64,000 bases of DNA from Flavobacteriales bacterium (GTDB taxonomy: Bacteria; Bacteroidota; Bacteroidia; Flavobacteriales_D; Sanyastnellaceae): the NCBI GenBank assembly GCA_022447625.1, contig JAKVAX010000012.1, forward strand, positions 1 to 64,000. The letters are read 5' to 3'. Below are positions 91 to 61,674 of this stretch, piece by piece. A program made the translations under genes and the position numbers. The number at the start of each line of letters is the position of its first letter. Position 1 is the first letter of the stretch. The notes beneath the pieces are model-generated. The model saw only the letters and a program-made list of their open reading frames with translations. It did no database searches and was not told where the DNA came from.

Positions 91-127
91 CGGCTATAGC
101 CTAAAACCTAAAGCCTATCGCCTACGA
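91..127 (-). repeat. Heptad repeat island (GCCTAAA-type words)
   Basis: Imperfect tandem repeat with a 7-bp period (words such as GCCTAAA and GCCTATC), the reverse complement of the TTAGGCT-type word that recurs at many gene ends in this window. Its gene would lie to the left, outside the window. The rest of positions 1-200 shows no gene or recognisable promoter. Confidence 0.75.
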
Positions 128-5980: not shown

Positions 5981-6160
5981 TTGCCTAATGTGAACACGGC
6001 ACTCCCAGGAATCAATGTGAACAGACAAAACTGAAATACAATTGTGAAACGGAAACCCCAAAACACCAAAGTGAACACAGAACTTCAAAAAGCAATTGTG
6101 AAACCGAACCTTCAAAACACTAAAGTGAACACAGAACCCCAAAAAGCAATTGTGAAAACA
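5981..6160. repeat. 27-bp tandem array, seven GTGA cores
   Basis: GTGA cores start at 5990, 6017, 6044, 6071, 6098, 6125 and 6152, an exact 27-bp spacing. Two core variants alternate from 6044 on (AATTGTGAAA and AAAGTGAACACAG), giving a 54-bp higher-order unit. The reverse strand is open as a 9-residue repeat, but composition and lack of a gene-like start argue against a protein. It resembles an iteron-style binding-site array. Confidence 0.85.
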
Positions 6161-6519: not shown

Positions 6520-6645
6520 GTGATTGTGAACACGAATTCTAAAAAACAATTGTGAACACGAATTCTGAAAATCAATTGTGAACATGCATTCTGAAAAGAC
6601 CATTGTGAACAGACCAATGCTCGGAGTGATTGTGAAACGGCGTTC
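6520..6645. repeat. 26/27-bp tandem array, five GTGA cores
   Basis: GTGA cores at 6526, 6552, 6578, 6605 and 6632 (spacing 26, 26, 27, 27). The unit reads CAATTGTGAACACGAATTCT followed by an A-rich spacer. It is related to the 5981-6160 array about 370 bp away. It precedes the YD-repeat gene at 6749. Confidence 0.85.
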
Positions 6646-6748
6646 ATCCACAAAACAAACAACCACCTTTAAAGCCACCCAACCAATGGGTTAGACCAAT
6701 TCCATAAATTAAAAGCTAGAAGGGTACAATTCTTGAGAACCGTGGCGT

Positions 6749-7894
6749 ATGCAGAAGTTTATGCTTTTTCTTTTGATAGGGCTTTCCCCTATTATTCTAT
6801 CTGGTCAACGCTTGCTGGGCAAAACAGGCGCTTTACAATGGGACTCGGCCGGGGTTTCAGTAGAACGGCAGTATGAAATCGAGCTTTCTCGACGAGGCAA
6901 AGACAAAGACACTCTTTTAGTAAGGCACATGGAGCTCCTTCATATTTCCGAAGATTCTATGTGCTATCTAGTTCATGAACCGGCTAAGTACAGAATGTTC
7001 GATACCACGCTATATAAAACTACGTGGGATACAACGGGAAATATTACCACACGACTTGAAATCAAACAAGGCTACTATCAGAATATTGACTGGGAAAGAA
7101 CCAACAACATAAAGACCAGATGGAAAGATGACTGGACACGTGGTTTGTCAAATGTTTACGGTTACAGACATTACTATGACACCTTGGGTAGAATGACGTT
7201 TAGTGAGTCCATTTCGGGAGATGTTTCAGTGCCCATGTCCGATGTGACTTGGTCAATGCTTGACTCTGCCGAGGGCATTATCTCTTCTCAATCAAGATAT
7301 TTCTACGGCCCTTTCGGACTCGATTCTATCCAAAACCGATTCTCCAAGACATATCCTTGGAATACCAGTACAGAATACAAGTATGATGATAATGGAAATC
7401 TGTTGCGAGAAGTTTGGTACGTTTCGGGTCAAGAGGATCGTATTACAACATGTTCATACGATGATCTCGGAAGACTCGTAAGCAGAATAGATTCGGCCCT
7501 TCTCCCCCCTAGTAACCTCTTTTGGGAAAATGGTTTTCGAAGTATTGAGCTTCGCTTCTTTATTGGAGGCAGGTTGACCGTAATGTCCAACTCAGAATTG
7601 CTCGCCAAAGAATCAAGAACATGGTTCGACGACGATTCCGTGGAAGTTGTCATTGATCTATACGGAGATGAATATTACGACCCTTCTGACACGGCAGATG
7701 TGCATTACATCGAGTTCACCAATTCGAAGAATCAAAGAGATATCAAATGGATCAACTACTATGGGGAACCTCAAGGACCAGAACCTTTTGATCCAAGAAG
7801 AACCCGTGATGATTGGATCCCCTCCCCTGGTGCTATTCGAACTGGAGAATTCTCAAAAGGAGATCGCAGACGTCTCATTTGGGTTTACGAGTGA
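6749..7894 (+). CDS. Secreted YD/RHS-repeat-like protein
   Basis: 381 aa with a signal peptide (MQKFMLFLLIGLSPIILSGQ). The mature part contains YD-type motifs typical of RHS/YD beta-strand proteins: YYDTLGRMTF near residue 145, YDDNGNLLREV near residue 211 and YDDLGRLVSRI near residue 236. It is far shorter than true Rhs toxins and has no recognisable toxin domain or Rhs core hyperconserved end, so it is more likely a small surface protein of the kind common in Bacteroidota. It is downstream of two tandem arrays and upstream of a beta-propeller-like gene. Confidence 0.65.
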   Translation: MQKFMLFLLIGLSPIILSGQRLLGKTGALQWDSAGVSVERQYEIELSRRGKDKDTLLVRHMELLHISEDSMCYLVHEPAKYRMFDTTLYKTTWDTTGNITTRLEIKQGYYQNIDWERTNNIKTRWKDDWTRGLSNVYGYRHYYDTLGRMTFSESISGDVSVPMSDVTWSMLDSAEGIISSQSRYFYGPFGLDSIQNRFSKTYPWNTSTEYKYDDNGNLLREVWYVSGQEDRITTCSYDDLGRLVSRIDSALLPPSNLFWENGFRSIELRFFIGGRLTVMSNSELLAKESRTWFDDDSVEVVIDLYGDEYYDPSDTADVHYIEFTNSKNQRDIKWINYYGEPQGPEPFDPRRTRDDWIPSPGAIRTGEFSKGDRRRLIWVYE

Positions 7895-8013
7895 GGTTCG
7901 GAAAATGCTTCTAGACATTAAAGTAGAAGAAATCAACACGAAGAACGAAATCAATACTCCATACCTTTCGGATATCGACTAAACGAAGTCCAATAAAGTT
8001 GACGAAATAGAAA

Positions 8014-8655
8014 ATGATCGAGCTCAATCTAGGTACCAACGTTCTGAAGTTAGCCACCGTCGAAGGTGAATGGACCAATACTCGTTCCGAGAAAGTTTTT
8101 CATAGTGAGGATTCTCAAGTCCACAATGACCTCACACCAGGGCCATTCAGAATCGAAGTCTCTTTATTTCATGAAAATCAGCTGACCGAACAAATATTTT
8201 TGGTTGGATGTCGCTCCAACAAGCGCTCGTTTATAGAGCTTGAGCAATTTATCGTCTTGGGGGACAAACTCGTCGTTTATTTTGACGGGTGTATACTTGC
8301 CTTCGACATTTCGAATCTCAATTTCTGTTGGAGAATCAATGAATTTGAGATATTTGGTCTATATATATTCGAGAATGACTTGATCGTTTACGATGAACTA
8401 TCCGTCCTCCGAATTGACAAAGAGGGCGTCATTAAATGGCGATATTCAGGAATGGATCATTTCGTTTCTTACAAAGGAAACACAGCCTTTGAAATGAATG
8501 AAGACCACATTCAATTAAGAGACTCTTTTGAGAACATTTATCGTATAGATTATGACGGAAACGTCATTGATGATTCAGATGCACGGTCCGTGATGGCAAC
8601 ACTATCGAAATCGAGGAAAAAGAGATTTTTTAGCATAAACCCCTTTAAGCGGTAA
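8014..8655 (+). CDS. Hypothetical beta-strand-rich cytosolic protein
   Basis: 213 aa without a signal peptide. Repeated strand-turn segments (for example VVYFDGCILAFDISN, LIVYDELSVLRIDKEG and IYRIDYDGNVID) suggest a partial beta-propeller or PQQ-like repeat. No enzyme motif seen. Such proteins occur as orphan immunity-like genes in Bacteroidota accessory regions, but nothing here proves that role. The start is the ATG just after an A-rich leader. Confidence 0.5.
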   Translation: MIELNLGTNVLKLATVEGEWTNTRSEKVFHSEDSQVHNDLTPGPFRIEVSLFHENQLTEQIFLVGCRSNKRSFIELEQFIVLGDKLVVYFDGCILAFDISNLNFCWRINEFEIFGLYIFENDLIVYDELSVLRIDKEGVIKWRYSGMDHFVSYKGNTAFEMNEDHIQLRDSFENIYRIDYDGNVIDDSDARSVMATLSKSRKKRFFSINPFKR

Positions 8656-8769
8656 TGGACCTTTGATTGTAGAACAAATGAAAGGAGTTATGATTAAAGG
8701 AATTGGTCCTTGCTTACTGAAATTGCCATCGAATGTCGCATCGAACTGTCCATCACAATTAATTTTCCT

Positions 8770-9171
8770 ATGACAAATTTCCAACCACAAATAGCCTTCT
8801 GGTCCCTAATTCCAATAGCCCTTGCTTACGGCTCCTGGAATAAATATGGTCCTTTTGACAACGGAACCCATGACAGCCCAATGATCATGCACCAAATGAC
8901 GTTCGCGTTGGTTTTAACCGTGGTGTTTCTCTTTACTGGGAGATCATACTTGAAATCGCAAAAAAGAAGAAAAGGTCGAAGGACAAGACTAAGTATAATC
9001 CACTGGTGCATGTCTGCTTCAGGCTTGATTTTCCTCTGGCTTTATGGTTTCTTAAGAATTGAATTGAACCTTGGAGAAGAACTCGCCAAAATCGTAGGTG
9101 ATGGACGTTTCGACCTAGTTCATGCTTCCCTTATTGGATTAATCTTCATCTCTCAGCTCTTGAACCAGTAA
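8770..9171 (+). CDS. Hypothetical small membrane protein
   Basis: 133 aa when started at the ATG at 8770; a TTG 60 nt upstream would add a charged extension with no obvious purpose. Four hydrophobic segments are visible (from about residues 8, 43, 78 and 114), separated by a basic loop (SQKRRKGRRTR). No family recognised. Its neighbours are other unrecognised genes of the accessory stretch. Confidence 0.55.
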   Translation: MTNFQPQIAFWSLIPIALAYGSWNKYGPFDNGTHDSPMIMHQMTFALVLTVVFLFTGRSYLKSQKRRKGRRTRLSIIHWCMSASGLIFLWLYGFLRIELNLGEELAKIVGDGRFDLVHASLIGLIFISQLLNQ

Positions 9172-9255
9172 CATCTTATATCGAATTGAGATACTTCACA
9201 ACTACTGCGGCAATGCTTACATTGAAATAAGGACACAACTCGGCGCCATCTGAAA

Positions 9256-9933
9256 ATGAGAACCATACTAACCCTTACTTTTATTTTATCCTGTTTTGTG
9301 GGCTGCTCACAAAAACCACTGACCTTAATCATCGACACCCTAGACTTTGTCCATAAATCAGCTCAAGATGGCTTCAAAATAACAGTTACCAATCAAGGAA
9401 TTGCGAGCCTGGGGCAGACCGACCAAAATGCGAAAGTCACATTAACAGACTACCCCAATTTTTATACTACGGTCACCTTAGAATCTGACTCAGCTAATAT
9501 TCGAATCCCGATTGATCAGGAACAGGGCTATCTCGAGCTGAGTAATGTTTTTGAGTTAGATACCATCAGAATCAACAAGGTGAAGCTGTATAGCAACTGC
9601 TTCAAAGACTCTATCAAAACAAGAATAGAGTATTATCGAGTTATTAACGACAGTGTCGCTGACCAACCGTATGAAGTAAAATACAAGGAGACTGCAGAAA
9701 AAGGAAAGTGCAAAAGAAGACCTCCTATCAAAACTCCACTTGTTATAAACGACCAAGTATATTTCGTGAGTATTCAAAAGAGAAAATGCGAAGCAGGAGA
9801 AGTCATACATGGACATGGACATAAACCAAAAATGACAGAAAGAAACTACGGGAATTATTCCGGCACAAAGTTTCACTTCAGCTCATATATCGATAGGTAT
9901 ATAAATGTGATAACAGTAGATCTTAATCAGTAA
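9256..9933 (+). CDS. Hypothetical lipoprotein
   Basis: 225 aa. The N terminus (MRTILTLTFILSCFVGCSQK) is a lipoprotein signal with a lipobox ending in Cys17, so the mature protein is probably anchored to the inner or outer membrane. The rest is a soluble beta-rich domain with four Cys in the second half (near NCFKD, KGKCKR and KRKCEAG), and a His-rich HGHGHK stretch near residue 186 that might bind metal. No family recognised. It closes the 3-10 kb accessory stretch. The 9934-10180 gap downstream holds no gene I can support. Confidence 0.6.
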   Translation: MRTILTLTFILSCFVGCSQKPLTLIIDTLDFVHKSAQDGFKITVTNQGIASLGQTDQNAKVTLTDYPNFYTTVTLESDSANIRIPIDQEQGYLELSNVFELDTIRINKVKLYSNCFKDSIKTRIEYYRVINDSVADQPYEVKYKETAEKGKCKRRPPIKTPLVINDQVYFVSIQKRKCEAGEVIHGHGHKPKMTERNYGNYSGTKFHFSSYIDRYINVITVDLNQ

Positions 9934-10149
9934 CCAGGTTCGTAACACTGACAGAATGAGCATCGAAAAGTAACCTCAATAGAAGACTTACTTTTTCTAT
10001 TCCTATTGTCGAATGGACGAACAGTGGCTTTCAAAAGCACAATTAGATAAGAGAAACATGTCCTGCCTAAAAAGTGAGTTCAGCTAAACAACCAGGAGCT
10101 AATGGAAAATCAATTTCAAAGACCAAAAAAAACCTGAAGAGACCATACT

Positions 10150-10192
10150 AATATCTATGCCCCCCCTATCATTTAGCCTTTCAGCCATTTAA
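10150..10192 (-). repeat. 8-bp word repeat at the 3' end of aroK
   Basis: On the aroK coding strand, AAATGGCT-like octamers overlap the last codons and the stop codon. The words are close to the perfect AAATGGCG octamer array at 20305-20357. The match is short, so the assignment is tentative. Confidence 0.4.
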
Positions 10193-13494: not shown

Positions 13495-13500
13495 AAATCA

Positions 13501-13536
13501 GGCCTAAGGCCTAGGGCTTATGGCGTAAGGCTTAGG
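13501..13536 (+). repeat. Heptad repeat island after clpB
   Basis: Starts six nt after the clpB stop. Five 7-bp words of the AGGCTTA/TGGCGTA type run in tandem in the clpB orientation. Confidence 0.8.
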
Positions 13537-13650: not shown

Positions 13651-13716
13651 CATAAGCCTTTGGCTTAAGCTCCCCTTACATAAGCCTTACGCCATCAGCC
13701 ATAAGCCTATTTAATA
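13651..13716 (-). repeat. Heptad repeat island after the FAH-family gene
   Basis: 7-bp words such as ATAAGCC and TTACGCC. On the minus strand the array begins with the TAG stop codon of the hydrolase gene. It mirrors the island after clpB on the other side of the terminator. Confidence 0.75.
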
Positions 13717-14397: not shown

Positions 14398-14527
14398 CTA
14401 GATGCTCAGGCCGCCTGCGGCGGTTAGCATGGTTAGTCCGCTTACAGCGGTTAGCATGATTAGTCCACATAAGACGGATAGCCTGGTTAGGCACTAACCC
14501 CACGGACGCCGGACGCCGGATGCCAGA
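14398..14527. repeat. Composite repeat island: GGTTAG hairpins then GGACGCC heptads
   Basis: Left part: a GCCGCCTGCGGCGG hairpin and GGTTAGCATGGTTAG words, repeated with drift. Right part: three tandem GGACGCC-type heptads (14504-14524). It fills the gap between the divergent FAH and MDR genes. No clear promoter was recognised inside it. Confidence 0.75.
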
Positions 14528-14586: not shown

Positions 14587-15543
14587 ATGCTCGCCATCAC
14601 TAAAACCAAATACGGTGGACCCGAAGTCTTATCTCTCGCTGAAGTGGAGAAACCTGCGCCGAAGGAAGATGAATTGCTTGTCAAAGTAGAAGGCAATTCT
14701 GTGAACCCTGCGGATTGGCATGTGATGCGTGGTTCTCCGTTTTTTGCGCGTCTTTCGTTTGGCTTGTTTAAGCCGAAGAACAAAATCTTGGGAGCAGATT
14801 TCGCCGGTGTTATTGAAGCAGTAGGCAGCAAGGTTCAAGGCTTTGAAGTTGGCGACCATGTGTACGGAGAGTCATTGCGTGGCGGGGCTTTCGCTGAATA
14901 CCTAGCGGTGAAACCCGCAGCTTGTGCAAAGTATGACTCCAACATCCCAGCGGTATTCATGGCGTGTGTTCCGGTGGCGGGGTTGACTGCGTTTCAAGCG
15001 GTAGAGACTCATGGCAATGTAGTGATCGGAGAACGTGTCCTCATCAACGGCGCCTCTGGCGGGGTTGGACATTTCGCAGTACAACTCGCGAAGTGGAAAG
15101 GAGCACATGTGACCGCAGTCTGTTCGAAGAAGAATGAATCGTTCGTCCGCAACCTAGGAGCGGATGACGTCATCCCTTACGATGAAATCGATATCCACTC
15201 CCACACCGAGGTCTACGACGTCGTATTCGACATCCACGGCAACCTCAACTATAAAGACTTTAAACGCATGGGCAAACGTGGCGTCCTGGTCGGATTCACA
15301 GGCATGGGTAACATGCTCAACGTCCTCATCAATAGCGGACTTCGAAAGTACCCCCTCGCCCAGTTCACCGCAGAAGCCAATACTCCGGATTTAGAGATTC
15401 TTGCCCGGTTAATCCATGATGGGGTGATTGAGCCGAAGGTCACCACGGTGTATGCTTTTGAGGAGATTCCTGAGGCTATTCGCGTGCTTGAGGAAATGAG
15501 GACAACGGGGAAAATAGGCGTAAGGCTCGGGGATAGGCTTTAG
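14587..15543 (+). CDS. NAD(P)-dependent MDR-superfamily oxidoreductase (quinone oxidoreductase-like)
   Basis: 318-aa medium-chain dehydrogenase/reductase. The N-terminal GroES-like fold has NSVNPADWHVMRG (near residue 38), GADFAGVIEAVG and GDHVYG. The Rossmann fold has NGASGGVGHFAVQLAK (near residue 151). The catalytic and structural zinc cysteines of alcohol dehydrogenases are absent, which points to a zinc-independent reductase of quinones or enones using NADPH. The substrate is unknown. The last residues and the TAG stop are encoded by the heptad repeat TAGGCGT..TAGGCTT, so the C-terminal tail has been rewritten by repeat DNA. Confidence 0.88.
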   Translation: MLAITKTKYGGPEVLSLAEVEKPAPKEDELLVKVEGNSVNPADWHVMRGSPFFARLSFGLFKPKNKILGADFAGVIEAVGSKVQGFEVGDHVYGESLRGGAFAEYLAVKPAACAKYDSNIPAVFMACVPVAGLTAFQAVETHGNVVIGERVLINGASGGVGHFAVQLAKWKGAHVTAVCSKKNESFVRNLGADDVIPYDEIDIHSHTEVYDVVFDIHGNLNYKDFKRMGKRGVLVGFTGMGNMLNVLINSGLRKYPLAQFTAEANTPDLEILARLIHDGVIEPKVTTVYAFEEIPEAIRVLEEMRTTGKIGVRLGDRL

Positions 15544-15640
15544 GCGTTAGTGGGATTAGCATGGTTAGGCCGCCTACGGCCGTTAGGGGCACGCATGAGT
15601 GCCCTTAGCAACGGAAGCCGGACGCCGGACGCCGGAGCAA
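15519..15640 (+). repeat. Composite repeat island overlapping an MDR gene end
   Basis: 7-bp TAGGCTT-type words run through the last codons and stop of the MDR gene. They are followed by TTAGCATGGTTAG, a GGCCGCCTACGGCC hairpin, the near-palindrome GGGCACGCATGAGTGCCC (15587-15604), and GGACGCC heptads (15613-15637). Confidence 0.85.
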
Positions 15641-17988: not shown

Positions 17989-18152
17989 GGTAGACCGTGG
18001 ACTGTGGACTGTGGACAGATGGGGTGATCGTGGTTCGTGGTAACTCACTAACCATGGTAACCATGCTAAGGGCACGCATGCGTGCCCCTAACCGCCGCAG
18101 GCGGACTAACCATGCCAATCACCACTAACGCCTATAGCCTAAAGCCTAACGC
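17989..18152. repeat. Composite repeat island between convergent genes
   Basis: TGGACTG heptads (three tandem, 17997-18017), GATCGTG/GTTCGTG heptads, CTAACCATGG words, the perfect 18-bp palindrome GGGCACGCATGCGTGCCC (18070-18087), a CCGCCGCAGGCGG hairpin, and GCCTATA/GCCTAAA heptads (18130-18152) in the orientation of the minus-strand gene. Confidence 0.85.
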
Positions 18153-18175
18153 CAATAAACGCTCCGCGTTTATTG
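18153..18175 (-). terminator. Hairpin covering the stop codon of the TonB-like gene
   Basis: Perfect 10-bp stem CAATAAACGC / GCGTTTATTG with a 3-nt loop. The TAA stop (18170-18172) lies inside the stem. There is no T run, so it may be an RNA-stability element rather than a classical terminator. Confidence 0.5.
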
Positions 18176-20262: not shown

Positions 20263-20446
20263 TTTTAGGCGTTGGGCTTTAGGCTATAGGCGTTAGTTTG
20301 GCTTAAATGGCGAAATGGCGAAATGGCGAAATGGCGAAATGGCGAAATGGCGAAATGTAGCCAAGAACCGCGTCCCGCAATCCGCGTTCCGCGTTCAACA
20401 TTCCAAATTCCACTAAAGCCTATCGCCTAACGCCTGTAGCTACAGG
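20263..20446. repeat. Composite island: heptads, AAATGGCG octamers, heptads
   Basis: TTAGGCT-type heptads (20266-20296) in plus orientation. A perfect octamer array AAATGGCG, 6.6 copies, at 20305-20357. Ten in-register heptads from CGCGTCC/CGCGTTC words into GCCTATC/GCCTAAC words at 20369-20438. The right end meets the TAG stop of lhgO. Confidence 0.9.
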
Positions 20447-28908: not shown

Positions 28909-29358
28909 ATGGAACTAAACGATATTCTAGCTATTAGCGGAAAGTCAGGACTCTTCCGCATGATCTCGAATAATGGAGCACGACTGATCGTGCAATCAAT
29001 GGTAGACGGTAAGAAAATGCCTGTATCTGCTACTCACAAGATCAGTGCTCTCGGCGATATCGCCATCTTCACTATCGAAGAAGATGTACCTCTTGGAGAG
29101 GTGTTCGACATGATGTACGAGAAAACAGGTGGAGAACAAGGACCATCTCACAAGGATGACCCGAAAGAACTACGCTCATTCCTGAACGAACTCCTCGACG
29201 AACTGGATCACGACCGCGTATACGATAGCGACCTCAAGAAGCTCTTCCAATGGTACAATATCCTCCACGCTAACGAAGCCTTCACAGAGGAAGAATCAAA
29301 AGAAGAGGAAGAATTAAAGGAAGAAGGGAAAGAAGAGGTAGAATCTAAAGGAGAATAA
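28909..29358 (+). CDS. DUF5606 domain protein
   Basis: 149 aa, cytosolic, conserved in Bacteroidota and of unknown function. The N-terminal DUF5606 domain reads LNDILAISGKSGLFRMISNN, with LIVQSMVDGKKMPVSATHKISALGDIAIFT after it. A second helical part (to about 125) ends in a Glu/Lys-rich tail (about 25 residues, EEESKEEEELKEEG...). The tail is encoded by purine-rich hexamer-like DNA that is the inverse of the TC-rich repeat just downstream, so it may be repeat-derived rather than conserved. Confidence 0.85.
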   Translation: MELNDILAISGKSGLFRMISNNGARLIVQSMVDGKKMPVSATHKISALGDIAIFTIEEDVPLGEVFDMMYEKTGGEQGPSHKDDPKELRSFLNELLDELDHDRVYDSDLKKLFQWYNILHANEAFTEEESKEEEELKEEGKEEVESKGE

Positions 29359-29441
29359 GAGGTTGAGATGGATCAGGCCATCTCAAAATTCTAATTCTCA
29401 TCTTCATTCTCATTCTAATTCTCATTCTAACTCTCACTCTA
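29285..29441. repeat. GA-rich then TC-rich hexamer repeats in inverted orientation
   Basis: GAAGAA/GAATTA-type words run through the DUF5606 3' end (29285-29360). TC-rich CATTCT/AATTCT hexamers follow at about 29386-29441. The two halves are roughly complementary and could fold on each other. Confidence 0.65.
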
Positions 29442-54502: not shown

Positions 54503-55204
54503 ATGAGCAATGAGCACAACCTTCAAGTGCTCTATGAAGACAATCATATCATCGCGGTCAACAAGCGCAACTCAGACATTGTGCAAAGCGATATCTCAGG
54601 TGACGCCACACTATGCGATGTGGTGAAGGAATACGTTCGTATCAAGTACAACAAACCCGGCAAAGCTTTCATCGGAACAGTTCATCGACTAGACCGACCG
54701 GTAAGTGGAGTGATTCTCTACGCTCGTACAACAAAGGCGCTCAATCGCTTGGTCAATATGTTCAAGTACCGCGAGATGCAGAAGACCTACTGGGCCTGCA
54801 CTCGTCCTGGACCACCGAAGATTGAAGACCACATCATCAATTACCTGAAGAAGAACGAGAAGCAAAATAAAAGCTACGCCCACGACGAGCCAGGCAATGG
54901 CCGAAAAGAAAGCGAGCTCCGCTACAAAGTAGTTGGCAAAACAGACCACTACCACTTCGTAGAAGTCTACCCAAAATCTGGTCGTCACCACCAGATCCGC
55001 GCCACTCTGTCAAGCATTGGTGCCCCAATCAAAGGTGACATCAAATACGGCGCTCGACGCACGAACGAAAACGCATCGATTCACCTTCACGCCCGAAAGA
55101 TTGAATTCATCCATCCCGTCAGAAAAACCCCAATGTGCATCGTGGCTCCCCCGCCGGATGATGTGTTGTGGGATGAGTTTTTGAGGGTTGAAACTGGGGT
55201 TTAG
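54503..55204 (+). CDS. RluA-family pseudouridine synthase (short form)
   Basis: Isomerises uridine to pseudouridine in rRNA or tRNA. 233 aa from the ATG at 54503; an in-frame GTG at 54443 would overlap panB and add a basic leader. Catalytic Asp64 in HRLDRPVSGVIL, start of the domain VLYEDNHIIAVNK, GRHHQIRATLS and the final HARKIEFIHP. There is no S4 domain. VNK is followed by RNSDIV instead of the usual PAG. Its TAG stop starts a TTAGGCT-type heptad array. Confidence 0.93.
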   Translation: MSNEHNLQVLYEDNHIIAVNKRNSDIVQSDISGDATLCDVVKEYVRIKYNKPGKAFIGTVHRLDRPVSGVILYARTTKALNRLVNMFKYREMQKTYWACTRPGPPKIEDHIINYLKKNEKQNKSYAHDEPGNGRKESELRYKVVGKTDHYHFVEVYPKSGRHHQIRATLSSIGAPIKGDIKYGARRTNENASIHLHARKIEFIHPVRKTPMCIVAPPPDDVLWDEFLRVETGV

Positions 55205-55260
55205 GCTTAACTCCGGCGTCCGGCGTCCGGCATCCGTTCTTACTCCGGCATCCGTTTTTT
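55202..55260 (+). repeat. Heptad island at the 3' end of the pseudouridine synthase gene
   Basis: Begins with the stop codon (TTAGGCT). The word family switches in register to GGCGTCC / GGCATCC heptads. A second ACTCCGGCATCC block follows. 55261-55327 holds no gene. Confidence 0.85.
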
Positions 55261-55714: not shown

Positions 55715-55880
55715 TTAATGTTTGAAATGAAGGTAACACAGAAAATTTCTCACCCTACAACGACTTTGTTCGCGTAGGTCAAAAGTTCACTCACGTCGAT
55801 AGATATAGTAATCAGGCCTATGATCGGCGCCTAATTCAAGTAAGGTCTCGTGAGAAGGATGCGAATCCTTGAAAAAAAAC

Positions 55881-55944
55881 GGACGCCGGAGGCCAGACGC
55901 CGGAATAAAGAACCTCAGAGAAAAAACGGACGCCGGACGCCGGA
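55881..55944. repeat. Two blocks of GGACGCC heptads
   Basis: Blocks at 55881-55904 and 55928-55944, each preceded by an A-run and AACGG, i.e. a direct repeat of about 45 bp. Lies in the 55715-56028 gap, which otherwise holds an AAGGAT..ATCCTT hairpin (55857-55872) and the trxB promoter. Confidence 0.8.
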
Positions 55945-55970
55945 AAACAGGAACCCTCCTTCGAGACACT

Positions 55971-58862: not shown

Positions 58863-58953
58863 AGACGAGAGTCGAGGGTCCAGAATCAGACGATAAACTA
58901 TAATCGATAATCTATAACCGGAGCACCGCGTTCTGCGTTCCGCGATCGGCGTT
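58863..58953 (+). repeat. 91-bp heptad array, 13 units in register
   Basis: Thirteen consecutive 7-bp words: AGACGAG-type, then CGATAAT/CTATAAC-type, then CCGCGTT-type. Families change without any shift in the 7-bp register. Sits between corA and the tRNA-His terminator. Confidence 0.9.
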
Positions 58954-58961
58954 CCTCTTAC

Positions 58962-58990: not shown

Positions 58991-58995
58991 CTTAG

Positions 58996-59070
58996 GGTGG
59001 CTAATGGGATTTGAACCCACGGCCTCCGGAACCACAATCCGGCGCTCTAACCAACTGAGCTATAGCCACC
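58996..59070 (-). tRNA. tRNA-His (GTG)
   Basis: Complete cloverleaf on the minus strand: acceptor stem GTGGCTA / TAGCCAC, D-arm GCTCAGTTGGTTAGAGC, anticodon stem CCGGA / TCCGG with loop TTGTGGT (anticodon GTG), T-arm GTGGGTTCAAATCCCAT. Position -1 is G, opposite C73, the identity feature of tRNA-His. CCA is not encoded. Confidence 0.95.
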
Positions 59071-59144: not shown

Positions 59145-60296
59145 ATGGAAAAAGTCGAAAAACTACGTATCCTCTTCCTTTCAAGCTGGTTTCCTGACCG
59201 GAATCAACCTACACTTGGAAACTTCGTAAAGCGTCACGCTCAGGCAGTTGCGCTGAAACACGACGTAGTTGTGGTGCACACCGTGGCCGATTCATCCATT
59301 TCTGAAGAAGAATGGGTGCATCAAAAAGATGGGAATTATGAGGAGTATATTCTCTATCACCCACCTAAATGGCCGCGCTATTTTCGACATCCGAAGTACT
59401 TGCGCAAGGCGGTCAATAAATACCTCGATGAAGGTGGTGAACGTCCTGACTTGATTCATTTGAATGTTCTTTACCCTGCTGGTCGACAAGCGATCCGTTT
59501 TCATGATGAATGGGGTGTACCCTTAGTAGCTTCTGAACACTGGACAGGTTACCATAACAACACGCATAGCGCCATTAAGGCTTGGGAGCTGAAGGTGATG
59601 AAAGGTGTGGGGGAACGCGCCTATAAACTGTTGCCAGTAACTCACCACTTGGCTTCTGCTATGGAGAAGGCTGGAGTTCAAGGGAATTATGACACAGTAG
59701 CGAACGTAGTAGATACTGATCTTTTCGATCGTAAATCACCCCATGATGGACCATTCCGCTTCTTACATGTGTCTTCTTTGTTTGATCAGCACAAGAATGT
59801 CAGCGGGTTATTGAATGCCTTTGCCAAGCTGCTCGAGAAGAACGACAAGGTCTTCTTAGAAATCATTGGTGATGGCGATACCGCGCCTCACATTGAGAAG
59901 GCAAAAGCGCTGAATATCCCAAGCGATAAGATTTCCTTCGCAGGTGAAAAGACCATTCAAGAGATTGCTGACCGCATGAAAAAGAGCGATGCCTTCGTCT
60001 TGTTCAGCAATTACGAGAATCTCCCTTGTGTGATTGGAGAAGCTTGGTCTACAGGCACTCCAGTGATTTCCAGTGATGTTGGCGGCATCAGCGAGCACCT
60101 CAACCGAGAAAAGGGCATGTTGGTCCAACCGAGAAATGAAGGCGAGCTACTAGCTGCCATGCAATCAATCATCCAGCTGCAGCACCAATATAATGGGGAT
60201 GATCTCCGTTCCTATGCCGTGAAGCATTTTAGCAACGAGGCCATTTGTGAGGCCTTCTCTCAGATCTATCACCAAGCAATTGCAGCGCAAAAATGA
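59145..60296 (+). CDS. Glycosyltransferase (GT4-type)
   Basis: Transfers sugars from nucleotide donors in surface polysaccharide or glycoprotein synthesis. 383 aa, GT-B fold. N-terminal FLSSWFPDRNQPTLGNFVKRHAQA, the C-terminal donor site with the Glu-rich E-x7-E region (SNYENLPCVIGEAWSTGTPVISSDVGG). A GGAGGGTG stretch 5 nt before the ATG is a rare Shine-Dalgarno-like sequence for this lineage. Overlaps the flippase gene by 4 bp, so they act in one pathway. Confidence 0.9.
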   Translation: MEKVEKLRILFLSSWFPDRNQPTLGNFVKRHAQAVALKHDVVVVHTVADSSISEEEWVHQKDGNYEEYILYHPPKWPRYFRHPKYLRKAVNKYLDEGGERPDLIHLNVLYPAGRQAIRFHDEWGVPLVASEHWTGYHNNTHSAIKAWELKVMKGVGERAYKLLPVTHHLASAMEKAGVQGNYDTVANVVDTDLFDRKSPHDGPFRFLHVSSLFDQHKNVSGLLNAFAKLLEKNDKVFLEIIGDGDTAPHIEKAKALNIPSDKISFAGEKTIQEIADRMKKSDAFVLFSNYENLPCVIGEAWSTGTPVISSDVGGISEHLNREKGMLVQPRNEGELLAAMQSIIQLQHQYNGDDLRSYAVKHFSNEAICEAFSQIYHQAIAAQK

Positions 60297-61504
60297 AATG
60301 GAAAGTAGCCACAAGCATGGCTTCCCGTCTACTCGTGATGTTGTTCACGGTTGCTGTCGTGTTGATGGTAACGAATAAGATTGGCGCTGAAGGACAAGGA
60401 ATAGCGGCCTTGGTGCAGCTTGGTATTCTGTTGATTGTCTCCATCACCAACTTCATTGGCGGCGGTGCCGTAGTGTACCTTTTGCCACGTATTGGTACGC
60501 GTCCGCTAGTATTACCGGCTTACGTTTGGAGTACCGCTATCGCGGGAATCTTCTATGGCTTCTTTCAGCTCGTACCCATTGTTCCAGCGGAGTTTGTGCT
60601 CGATGTGGTGATCTTAGGTTGGCTGCAAGCGATGTTCACCTTCCACTTGCAGATACTAGTCGGACAAGAACGGATTCACCGTTTCAACGTAATCGTGACC
60701 TTACAGGCTTTTTGGCTAGCGGCTATGTTGGCCTACTTGATTTTTGTGGCGGAAGCGGTTGAGATCAGATCGTACATCAATGCCCTCTACGTTTCTTTTG
60801 GAATGACCTACCTCATCGCAATGATTTCAAGTTGGAAGCACATGATGGTACCGAGTGAAATCACTCCTCGAGCGGCATTCGATGAGCTGTGGAAATTCGG
60901 AAGGTATGCTCAACTGGGTAATATCCTTCAACTCTTGACCTACCGGTCGAATATCTGGATCGTAGAAAAGCTCATCGGCCTCAGCGCAAGTGGGATTTAC
61001 TCCCTTTCCCTCTATGCCAGTGAATCTATTTGGAACGTTGGAAAGAGCCTCGCACTTGTTCAAGGAGCACGCATCGCCAACACCAACGACGATGCCTACA
61101 ATCGCCAGCTCACCAGCAAGTTTATGAAACTGTCTATCGCGGGCTCCGTTGTTCTCATCGGAATCATGCTCGCCCTCCCTGACCCCTTCTACCAATGGCT
61201 CTTCGGCGAAGAAATGGCCGGACTCTATTGGGTTCTTCTTTGGGTTTCTCCAGGTATCCTAGCCAATGCCTGTAGTATGATTTACTCGCACTACTTCAGT
61301 GGCGTAGGCCTCCACAGAAACAACACCATCGGCTCCGGTGCCGGTCTAGCAGCCCTCTTAATCGTTGTCTATCCCCTCATCACTAACTACGGCGTCGAAG
61401 GAGGCGCCATGGCTGCTAGTGTTGCGTATATCGTCCAACTCATCACAATGGAGATACTTTTTAGACGAGGGTCGAGAGACGAGAGTCTAGGGACTAATCG
61501 ATAA
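60293..61504 (+). CDS. Oligosaccharide flippase-like membrane protein
   Basis: 403 aa with about 12 hydrophobic segments, the MATE-like polysaccharide-flippase (Wzx) architecture. It would flip lipid-linked glycans across the inner membrane. The ATG lies in the 3' end of the glycosyltransferase gene (ATGA overlap). About the last 13 residues (RRGSRDESLGTNR) and the stop codon are encoded by the heptad array AGACGAG..., so the native C terminus was replaced or extended by repeat DNA. Confidence 0.83.
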   Translation: MKWKVATSMASRLLVMLFTVAVVLMVTNKIGAEGQGIAALVQLGILLIVSITNFIGGGAVVYLLPRIGTRPLVLPAYVWSTAIAGIFYGFFQLVPIVPAEFVLDVVILGWLQAMFTFHLQILVGQERIHRFNVIVTLQAFWLAAMLAYLIFVAEAVEIRSYINALYVSFGMTYLIAMISSWKHMMVPSEITPRAAFDELWKFGRYAQLGNILQLLTYRSNIWIVEKLIGLSASGIYSLSLYASESIWNVGKSLALVQGARIANTNDDAYNRQLTSKFMKLSIAGSVVLIGIMLALPDPFYQWLFGEEMAGLYWVLLWVSPGILANACSMIYSHYFSGVGLHRNNTIGSGAGLAALLIVVYPLITNYGVEGGAMAASVAYIVQLITMEILFRRGSRDESLGTNR

Positions 61505-61674
61505 TCGTTGAACTATAGTCGATAACTGAGGCACTAACTAAAGCCTATAGCCTAACGCCAAAAGTCTCCTAATCACCCTATCCAGCCGCAGGCAAACTAA
61601 TCATGCTTTTTCCGACGTCCGGCGTCCGGCATCCGGATTACACAGCATTACTAACGCCTGTAGCCTAAAGCCTC
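61463..61674. repeat. Long heptad island with in-register change of words
   Basis: From 61463, about sixteen 7-bp units run to 61574: AGACGAG-type in the coding sequence of the flippase, then TCGATAA/ACTATAG-type, then AAAGCCT/ATAGCCT-type. It continues with CAGCCGCAGGC, GGCGTCC heptads (61614-61637), and AACGCCT/GTAGCCT heptads (61651-61672) oriented with bshB1. Confidence 0.9.

Follow-up and report, generated by a model that had tools for sequence, protein, structure and literature searches.

The question raised by this locus is how intergenic islands can keep a 7-bp tandem period while the repeated word changes, and whether such islands belong to a known class of repeat. The window, i.e., the whole stretch of 64,000 nucleotides analysed here, comprises bases 1-64000 of contig 4 in a draft genome (G000) of 3.9 Mb and 76 contigs, and was compared with a sister species (G002), 89-95% identical to the window over aligned blocks (88.8-94.8%), and with a third, more distant species of the same genus (G001), whose long matches are 70-75% identical. 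The blocks shared by G002 and the window are collinear, some stretches, e.g., 6650-10172, lying outside the long alignment blocks. For one flanking protein the matches listed comprise 13 loci, headed by MAGs, and nearer records may be missing; identities are 70% for a Cryomorphaceae bacterium, 62% for a MAG labelled Chitinophaga pinensis and 55-60% for several Flavobacteriales/Cryomorphaceae.

Direct reading found the sequences reported by the first-pass annotation at their positions (features given here without a strand are unstranded). A GCCTAAA-family heptad array of ~4 units lies at 91..127 (plus strand; lag-7 match 0.67). The GGCTTAA/GGCCTAA array (GCCTTAA family) at 13500..13536 (minus strand), whose G002 copy is 7 bp longer, is the left arm of a pair completed by the CATAAGC/GCCTTAC array at 13651..13716 (plus strand; lag-7 match 0.42, z 2.8), inverted with respect to the left arm. 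Divergent gap sequence carries a REP-like module (TTAGCATGRTTAG ... units of 26-27 bp) at 14402..14490, similar copies of which are dispersed in G002, and a CCGGACG-family array at 14503..14527 (plus strand). Another array of this family lies at 15612..15636 (plus strand). At the gene end at 15519..15545 a TTAGGCG array (minus strand) is present, and the G002 gap holds eight TGGTTCG units. The composite island at 17989..18153 consists of GTGGACT, TGGTTCG and CTAACCATG modules, the GGGCACGCATGCGTGCCC palindrome and a GCCTAAM array, and G002 retains little of it besides the palindrome. The composite island at 20263..20446 is made up of a TTAGGCN array, an array of the octamer AAATGGCG, a CCGCGTT array and a GCCTAAM array, the first of these reading TTAGGCG in G000 and, between the same T-run and the same octamers, TCCGGCG in G002. 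Octamers represent a second unit length, with 6.6 perfect copies of AAATGGCG at 20305-20357, and are frequent in G001 too, with other words (TTTCCCAG, GTCGATAA).

The TCCGGCG array at 55202..55260 (minus strand) has one heptad more in G002, and the CGGACGC arrays with a AATAAAGAACCTCAG spacer at 55880..55950 (plus strand) have their unit multiplied there (+176 bp). At 58863..58955, AGACGAG/GTCGAGG, then CGATAAA/CTATAAT, then CCGCGTT arrays follow one another (lag-7 match 0.61), and a tRNA-His gene (gtg; 58995-59069, minus strand) adjoins this island. The main island, at 61463..61574, consists of AGACGAG/GTCTAGG, TCGATAA and then GCCTAAM words and extends over the final 14 codons (stop included) of the ORF 60293-61504; 21 bp (three heptads) of the G000 sequence are missing from G002, within these last codons and with the frame kept. 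A TCCGGCG array followed by a GCCTAAM array occupies 61611..61674, where the G002 gap has a further 115-bp composite unit. The window also contains tandem repeats of ~26-27 bp (ATTGTGAACACGAATTC...AAAACA) at 6039-6157 and 6523-6616, similar TTGTGAAC repeats being present at several places in G002, and low-complexity 6- to 30-bp repeats (AGAGGAAGAATC, ATTCTAATTCTC) at 29286-29441, at the end of the ORF 28909-29358 and the start of the next ORF.

Regarding the period itself, all ten stretches listed in the first-pass annotation are 7-bp periodic, with lag-7 matches of 0.42-0.76 vs. 0.25-0.27 in shuffles (z 2.8-7.5, values inflated by the prior selection of these stretches). Two are less clean, that beginning at 13651 (0.35 at lag 6, 0.42 at lag 7) and that beginning at 20263 (0.45 at lag 8, 0.49 at lag 7), the latter being high at lag 8 because of its octamer array. 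In the 464 kb of G000 on which the lag spectrum was computed, lag-7 runs of 5 matches per 1000 intergenic positions amounted to 20.6 in convergent, 20.1 in divergent, 18.9 in codirectional - and 4.1 in codirectional + gaps, the last being a weak class in which lags 26 and 27 exceed lag 7. Other intergenic lags that are not multiples of 7 were mostly below 4 per 1000, with a maximum of 7.2, and harmonics were present at lags 14 and 21 in the convergent, divergent and codirectional - classes and at lag 28 in two classes. Coding DNA of the same 464 kb had no lag-7 excess (1.0 run per 1000 positions). The autocorrelation thus revealed a strong intergenic excess of period 7, and not the lack of excess over period 6 or 8 that had been named as evidence against the pattern. 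Array calls, coding DNA included, in 704 kb of the 3.9 Mb of G000, a biased sample drawn from contigs having at least one word match, gave 113 arrays of period 7, compared with 5 of period 5, 42 of period 6, 8 of period 8, 29 of period 9 and 36 of period 12. The lag spectrum, the array counts by period and the shuffles together reject a chance origin of the period-7 arrays.

The location of the arrays is mainly intergenic, 26 of 397 being without intergenic context according to a home-made gene caller (a simple ORF/hexamer script; arrays were called by a simple lag score), and their distribution is uneven, with 9 of 22 stretches array-free. Regions with an array made up 18/46 convergent, 9/64 divergent and 29/202 codirectional regions in G000. 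The corresponding figures in G002 were 28/51, 15/77 and 57/229, array counts that are too high as densities because the sample includes 80 kb picked for known islands (590001-630000, 1750001-1770000 and 3050001-3070000), one of these pieces containing the cluster of composite repeats. The description of the islands as 3' intergenic therefore holds as a preference for 3' ends but not as an exclusive location, arrays being present between divergent genes as well.

Comparison of orthologous gaps between G000 and G002, which left aside G000 contig 67 (80 kb), started from 283 gaps, 50 of which could not be paired; 3 of the 233 pairs were dropped for their length difference. Among the resulting 230 aligned gaps, arrays were present in both species in 35, in G000 only in 2, in G002 only in 7 and in neither in 186. 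The aligned gaps contain 59 G000 arrays, of which 36 differ from their G002 consensus word by at most one change (best rotation), 12 differ by two or three changes, and 11 have no G002 array in that place. Array sites are stable while their content changes. Indels of 7 bp numbered 23 of 152 inside arrays, as did those of 1 bp, with 3 of 6 bp and 6 of 8 bp; multiples of 7 accounted for 33/96 indels of 4-60 bp inside arrays vs. 11/128 outside. Nine of the 26 clean indels of at least 6 bp are 7 bp long; in seven of them, five or more of the 7 positions of the inserted heptad agree with the heptad that follows. Gain or loss by single heptads, which had been proposed as a check, is thus seen between the sister species. 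Substitutions affect 407/3151 aligned positions in arrays (12.9%) vs. 2140/34086 in other intergenic DNA (6.3%), about a twofold difference. In all three congeners, units two apart are more similar than units four apart when compared with shuffled unit order (G000, p=0.002, 17 arrays; G002, 0/500 shuffles, 53 arrays; G001, p=0.008, 12 arrays). Heptad-sized indels, copied neighbours and the fall in similarity as units lie further apart are consistent with mutation combined with slippage or unequal exchange.

Regarding the change of word family, the first-pass annotation held that it takes place with no shift in register. Where neighbouring arrays differ in family or strand, however, their words were not significantly more similar at the actual phase, which scored 2.12 of 7 vs. 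1.57 for the other phases in G000 (n=16, p=0.29) and 1.94 vs. 1.83 in G002 (n=70, p=0.26), and it was best or joint best in 5/16 and 11/70 cases, respectively. Register is undefined between two abutting unrelated words, and direct reading shows the AGACGAG-then-CGATAA pair to be one base out of phase between the two long islands of the window. Strict register across unrelated families was thus unsupported in two tests, and what stands of the original observation is the 7-bp period, without strict register and without an exclusive 3' location. Related words do change in register, e.g., TAGGCTG TAGACCG TGGACCG TGGACTG TGGTTCG in L009, or GCCGTCT to GCCATCC to ACGATCC in G001, and it is only between related words that such a change is evident. 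Fixed gaps at family junctions were looked for in seven short-motif pairs with small counts, mostly with no peak; the exception is CCGGA to GCCTA, with gaps of 5, 12, 18, 19 and 25 only (15 cases, two phases), a pattern that may derive from duplicated composites.

Composite repeats are present in G002 as eight copies within 16 kb, some of the neighbouring genes being paralogous and others not. Their modules follow in the order GTGGACC array, TGAAT array, ATTCA array, GTTATTG/GTTCGTG/GTTTTTG array, REP-like palindrome, GCCTACC array and GCCTTAA array; the order is near-fixed and the spacers are conserved, some copies missing modules, and the pairwise matches between copies include lengths of 228-446 bp among the longest listed. 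Two copies can be aligned over 228 bp without gaps and with 24 mismatches, ten of which are accounted for by two changes (A to C, T to G) that recur in all of five consecutive units. The first unit retains a variant word in two of the eight copies. No shared boundaries were seen among the eight composites or the clean insertions. An island on G000 contig 76 has a similar module order, reversed and with two modules missing. In G002 certain transitions exceed the shuffled expectation (F3-/F8-, 9 vs. 0.8, a count coming largely from the 16-kb cluster of eight composites; F2+/REP, 12 vs. 2.1); for G000, 53 module transitions were available, most of them not above expectation. Matches from gap to gap within a genome numbered 2080 in G002 vs. 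99 in G000, a difference arising partly from the choice of pieces, and 94/96 array-bearing gaps in G002 and 37/53 in G000 match at least one other gap within their own genome, with many purely periodic matches among them. The REP-like pattern CTAAYCATGCTAWCCGCC was detected 12 times in G000 and 24 times in G002, with an intergenic position established for the copies in sampled gaps, and was absent from the other 38 genomes searched, G001 included. Word switching is partly the juxtaposition of modules belonging to dispersed composites, so that duplication or recombination is involved.

The vocabulary of the arrays, counted as array consensus words up to rotation and strand, is small. There were 53 words in the 113 arrays of G000 vs. 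105-111 in shuffles, and 79 words in the 284 arrays of G002 vs. 237-258; a repeat of the G002 count without the island-chosen pieces gave 68 words in 183 arrays vs. 158-177. Pooling of G000 and G002, which counts orthologous arrays twice, resulted in 93 words in 397 arrays, with seven clusters containing 311 arrays. The same words thus recur at separate loci, an outcome not expected of local slippage from random seeds. The 260 kb of G001 sampled contained 35 period-7 and 30 period-8 arrays, with words such as CGATCCC, GCCGTCT and GGTGGAT, and, in the samples compared, each of seven two-unit patterns was present in G001 alone or in the pair G000 and G002 alone. The heptad arrays of this congener use other words in these samples; the unit length is still 7.

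Beyond the genus, GCCTAAMGCCTAA was found in 3 of 40 whole genomes of relatives (G000, 23 matches; G002, 74; G001, 1); its reversed control also matches (8 in G000, 34 in G002) and is not clean because, read backwards, the pattern is a word of another family (CCGCAAT). Among 296 genomes of the phylum, a set outside which G001 and G002 lie, GTGGTTCGTGGTTCG occurred in three (38 matches in its own genome, one each in two others) and GGCGTCCGGCRTCCGG in nine (18 in its own, one each in eight others). The reversed control of the GTGGTTCGTGGTTCG scan matched 20 times in G203, 10 times in G156 and once each in two further genomes; these matches hint at other heptamers elsewhere, although 40 kb sampled from G203 held one period-7 array. 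Few arrays were present in other genera (G007, 1 in 50 kb; G008, 0 in 40 kb; G010, 2 in 25 kb) and in 13 named loci (2 period-7 arrays in 155 kb).

The arrays also have a polarity. Family orientation signs were set by hand, an aspect addressed by held-out and seed-free tests, and in the orientation training the sign was reversed for F8 and F10, while the unsigned families F5 and F9 were left out. The 209 pairs of neighbouring arrays comprised 90 '-+', 22 '+-', 43 '--' and 54 '++' pairs, with 100/143 in the held-out test (p=2e-6), the left array tending to carry the G-rich strand and the right array the C-rich strand. The difference C minus G per base, left/right, was -0.06/+0.09 in G000 (p=4e-4) and -0.09/+0.10 in G002 (p=4.5e-12), and near zero in array-free gaps; the polarity appears in convergent, divergent and codirectional gaps alike and did not reach significance in G001 (11 and 19 arrays, p=0.34). 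Pairs of arms belonging to one family were not above chance overall (4/20, p=0.10; 10/70, p=0.35), and a single hairpin formed by same-family arms was rejected for lack of an overall enrichment of such pairs. Some inverted same-family pairs do occur in G002, F8-/F8+ with 8 vs. 0.7 expected, largely in one local cluster, and F7 and F6 pairs with 3 vs. 0.3-0.4 expected.

Taken together, the islands probably belong to the known STRR/LSSR kind of heptamer simple-sequence repeats, with duplication spreading them and slippage keeping them homogeneous. They are intergenic clusters of heptamer tandem repeats, minisatellite-like and of 2 to at least 18 units, in which whole 7-bp units are gained and lost, as the indels show, presumably via slipped-strand replication or unequal exchange. 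Point mutations in single units would be spread or lost by the same turnover, as a consequence of which the word could drift in register and be replaced array-wide, the pattern that is observed. Arrays also reach new loci as modules of composites with REP-like palindromes and octamer arrays, as the eight aligned composite copies in G002 show. Repetition of both steps could lead to a small vocabulary shared per species group and exchanged over genus-level time while the unit stays at 7; intergenic DNA would tolerate such turnover, and we infer no sequence-specific function for the words.

The earlier interpretation, that slippage makes copies of one word and that a switch of family points to a template-driven or recombination-based process, was partly borne out. 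The period-7 excess and the gain and loss of heptads agree with it, and the composite modules argue for duplication or recombination; its dismissal of slippage went too far, since the distance decay, the copied neighbours and the in-register drift are what slippage plus mutation gives, and a template writer gained no positive evidence. Against slippage count the 33 multiple-of-7 indels, compared with 407 substitutions among the 3151 aligned bases of arrays: visible heptad indels are few, and most slippage must go unseen, with gains offsetting losses, if it rewrites five units. Slippage alone also leaves the recurrence of the same words at many loci unexplained, and the shared words and composites mean that copying between loci is needed as well, which for eight composites in 16 kb with some paralogous genes may partly be ordinary local duplication. 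The polarity of the arrays is not predicted by slippage and duplication.

A dedicated template-driven or conversion system that rewrites whole arrays to few genome-wide words, either by telomerase-like RNA copying or by gene conversion between dispersed arrays, would agree with the two base differences shared by five units between ungapped copies, with the few words found genome-wide and with a vocabulary that differs between congeners while the unit length stays constant. We nevertheless consider it quite unlikely, as unit similarity decays with distance, inserted units mostly copy their neighbour and the variant first unit of two of the eight copies is what slippage turnover would leave; the concerted replacement of five units can also come from contraction and re-expansion. 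RVT_1 (PF00078), the sole model searched in this regard, was absent from the 76-contig draft of G000 and present as one gene each in G001 and G002 (loci L148 and L149), and a reverse-transcriptase writer was rejected on its absence from G000. Decidedly improbable, too, is that each island is an inserted long mobile repeat, REP/BIME- or MITE-like, with the heptads merely its internal sequence. The eight composites with their near-fixed order and conserved spacers, the gaps matching elsewhere in the same genome, the REP-like pattern confined to G000 and G002 among the genomes searched and one Y1_Tnp gene per congener (L153, L155 and L157) would be in keeping with such an element, but the islands of the window differ in their module sets and have no common ends, module strings differ between most islands, G001 has heptad arrays without the REP-like pattern, and no target-site duplication was demonstrated. 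The Y1_Tnp gene, weak in G002, was also detected in 3/9 other genomes of the family and is not genus-specific.

Selected functional signals, such as bidirectional terminators, RNA stems or protein-binding arrays, would explain the preference for convergent over divergent gaps and the excess of '-+' over reverse pairs; the different words of the congeners, the doubled substitution in arrays, the chance level of same-family arms and the non-significant polarity in G001 make this very unlikely, and at gathering score Rfam yielded one tRNA and no other family in the window. A bolder proposal is that the genus has a process, linked to replication or recombination, that gauges a length of 7 bp whatever the sequence and converts whole arrays to a single word used across the species, vocabularies being swapped wholesale between congeners and the G-rich strand pointing into each island; this seems unlikely to us, and duplication with slippage remains the preferred reading of the islands.

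Regarding known systems, a period-7 excess, a mainly intergenic position and variation of unit number between close relatives, as expected of LSSR/STRR repeats, were all found, and the likeness to REP/BIME elements is confined to one module, the short dispersed palindrome CTAAYCATGCTAWCCGCC. REP/BIME elements with RAYT transposases are short intergenic palindromes occurring in tandem or as inverted pairs; here the palindrome is one module type, and the heptad arrays themselves are not palindromes. The STRR of heterocystous cyanobacteria, reportedly described by Mazel et al. in 1990, are said to consist of few heptamer words in tandem arrays across the genome, and thus share with the present arrays the few recurring heptamer words, while words and phylum differ.

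The suggestion that no described element has this layout does not hold for the basic layout, arrays of heptamers having been described (PMC4679880; PMC4692102); of exchanged heptamer vocabularies no description was found in the literature searched, mostly outside subscription journals. According to the second-hand account of Mrazek et al. (2007) in these two papers, heptamers are the commonest class of long simple sequence repeat in most genomes and polymerase slippage at ~7 nt was proposed, the account giving no vocabulary or composite structure; in the portions of both papers drawn upon here, this slippage hypothesis is the only explanation for the heptamer preference in bacterial tandem repeats (PMC4679880; PMC4692102). 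The TAACTGA repeats of Beggiatoaceae, Cyanobacteria and some Bacteroidetes are likewise intergenic heptamer arrays of patchy distribution; several heptamers are assembled together in Elizabethkingia, and Gramella and A. sublithincola have heptamers in addition to TAACTGA (PMC4679880). The TAACTGA repeats are, however, described as having one dominant word, which in the main species is mostly found immediately upstream of start codons, and direct repeats of related heptamers are reported to be rare there (PMC4679880). The GGGAATC repeats of Xanthomonas (186 and 183 patterns in two genomes, with strong length and sequence variation) and the GGGGA(C/T)T repeats of Nostoc are, as here, intergenic heptamer arrays with heterogeneous units; the account concerns one G4-forming word family (PMC4692102), whereas about seven main families plus octamers, partly composite, are present here, and a congener has other words.

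The kind of repeat is thus known, while an exchange of words at fixed unit length is unusual, and the new part consists of the vocabulary turnover and the array polarity. The same unit length, the different vocabularies of congeners and the array-wide replacement of words make the process directly testable. Convergently oriented array pairs, 70 and 75 cases, have been reported in Xanthomonas (PMC4692102), and we read their sense as that of the polarity found here; should one rule govern both, a common cause would be suggested.
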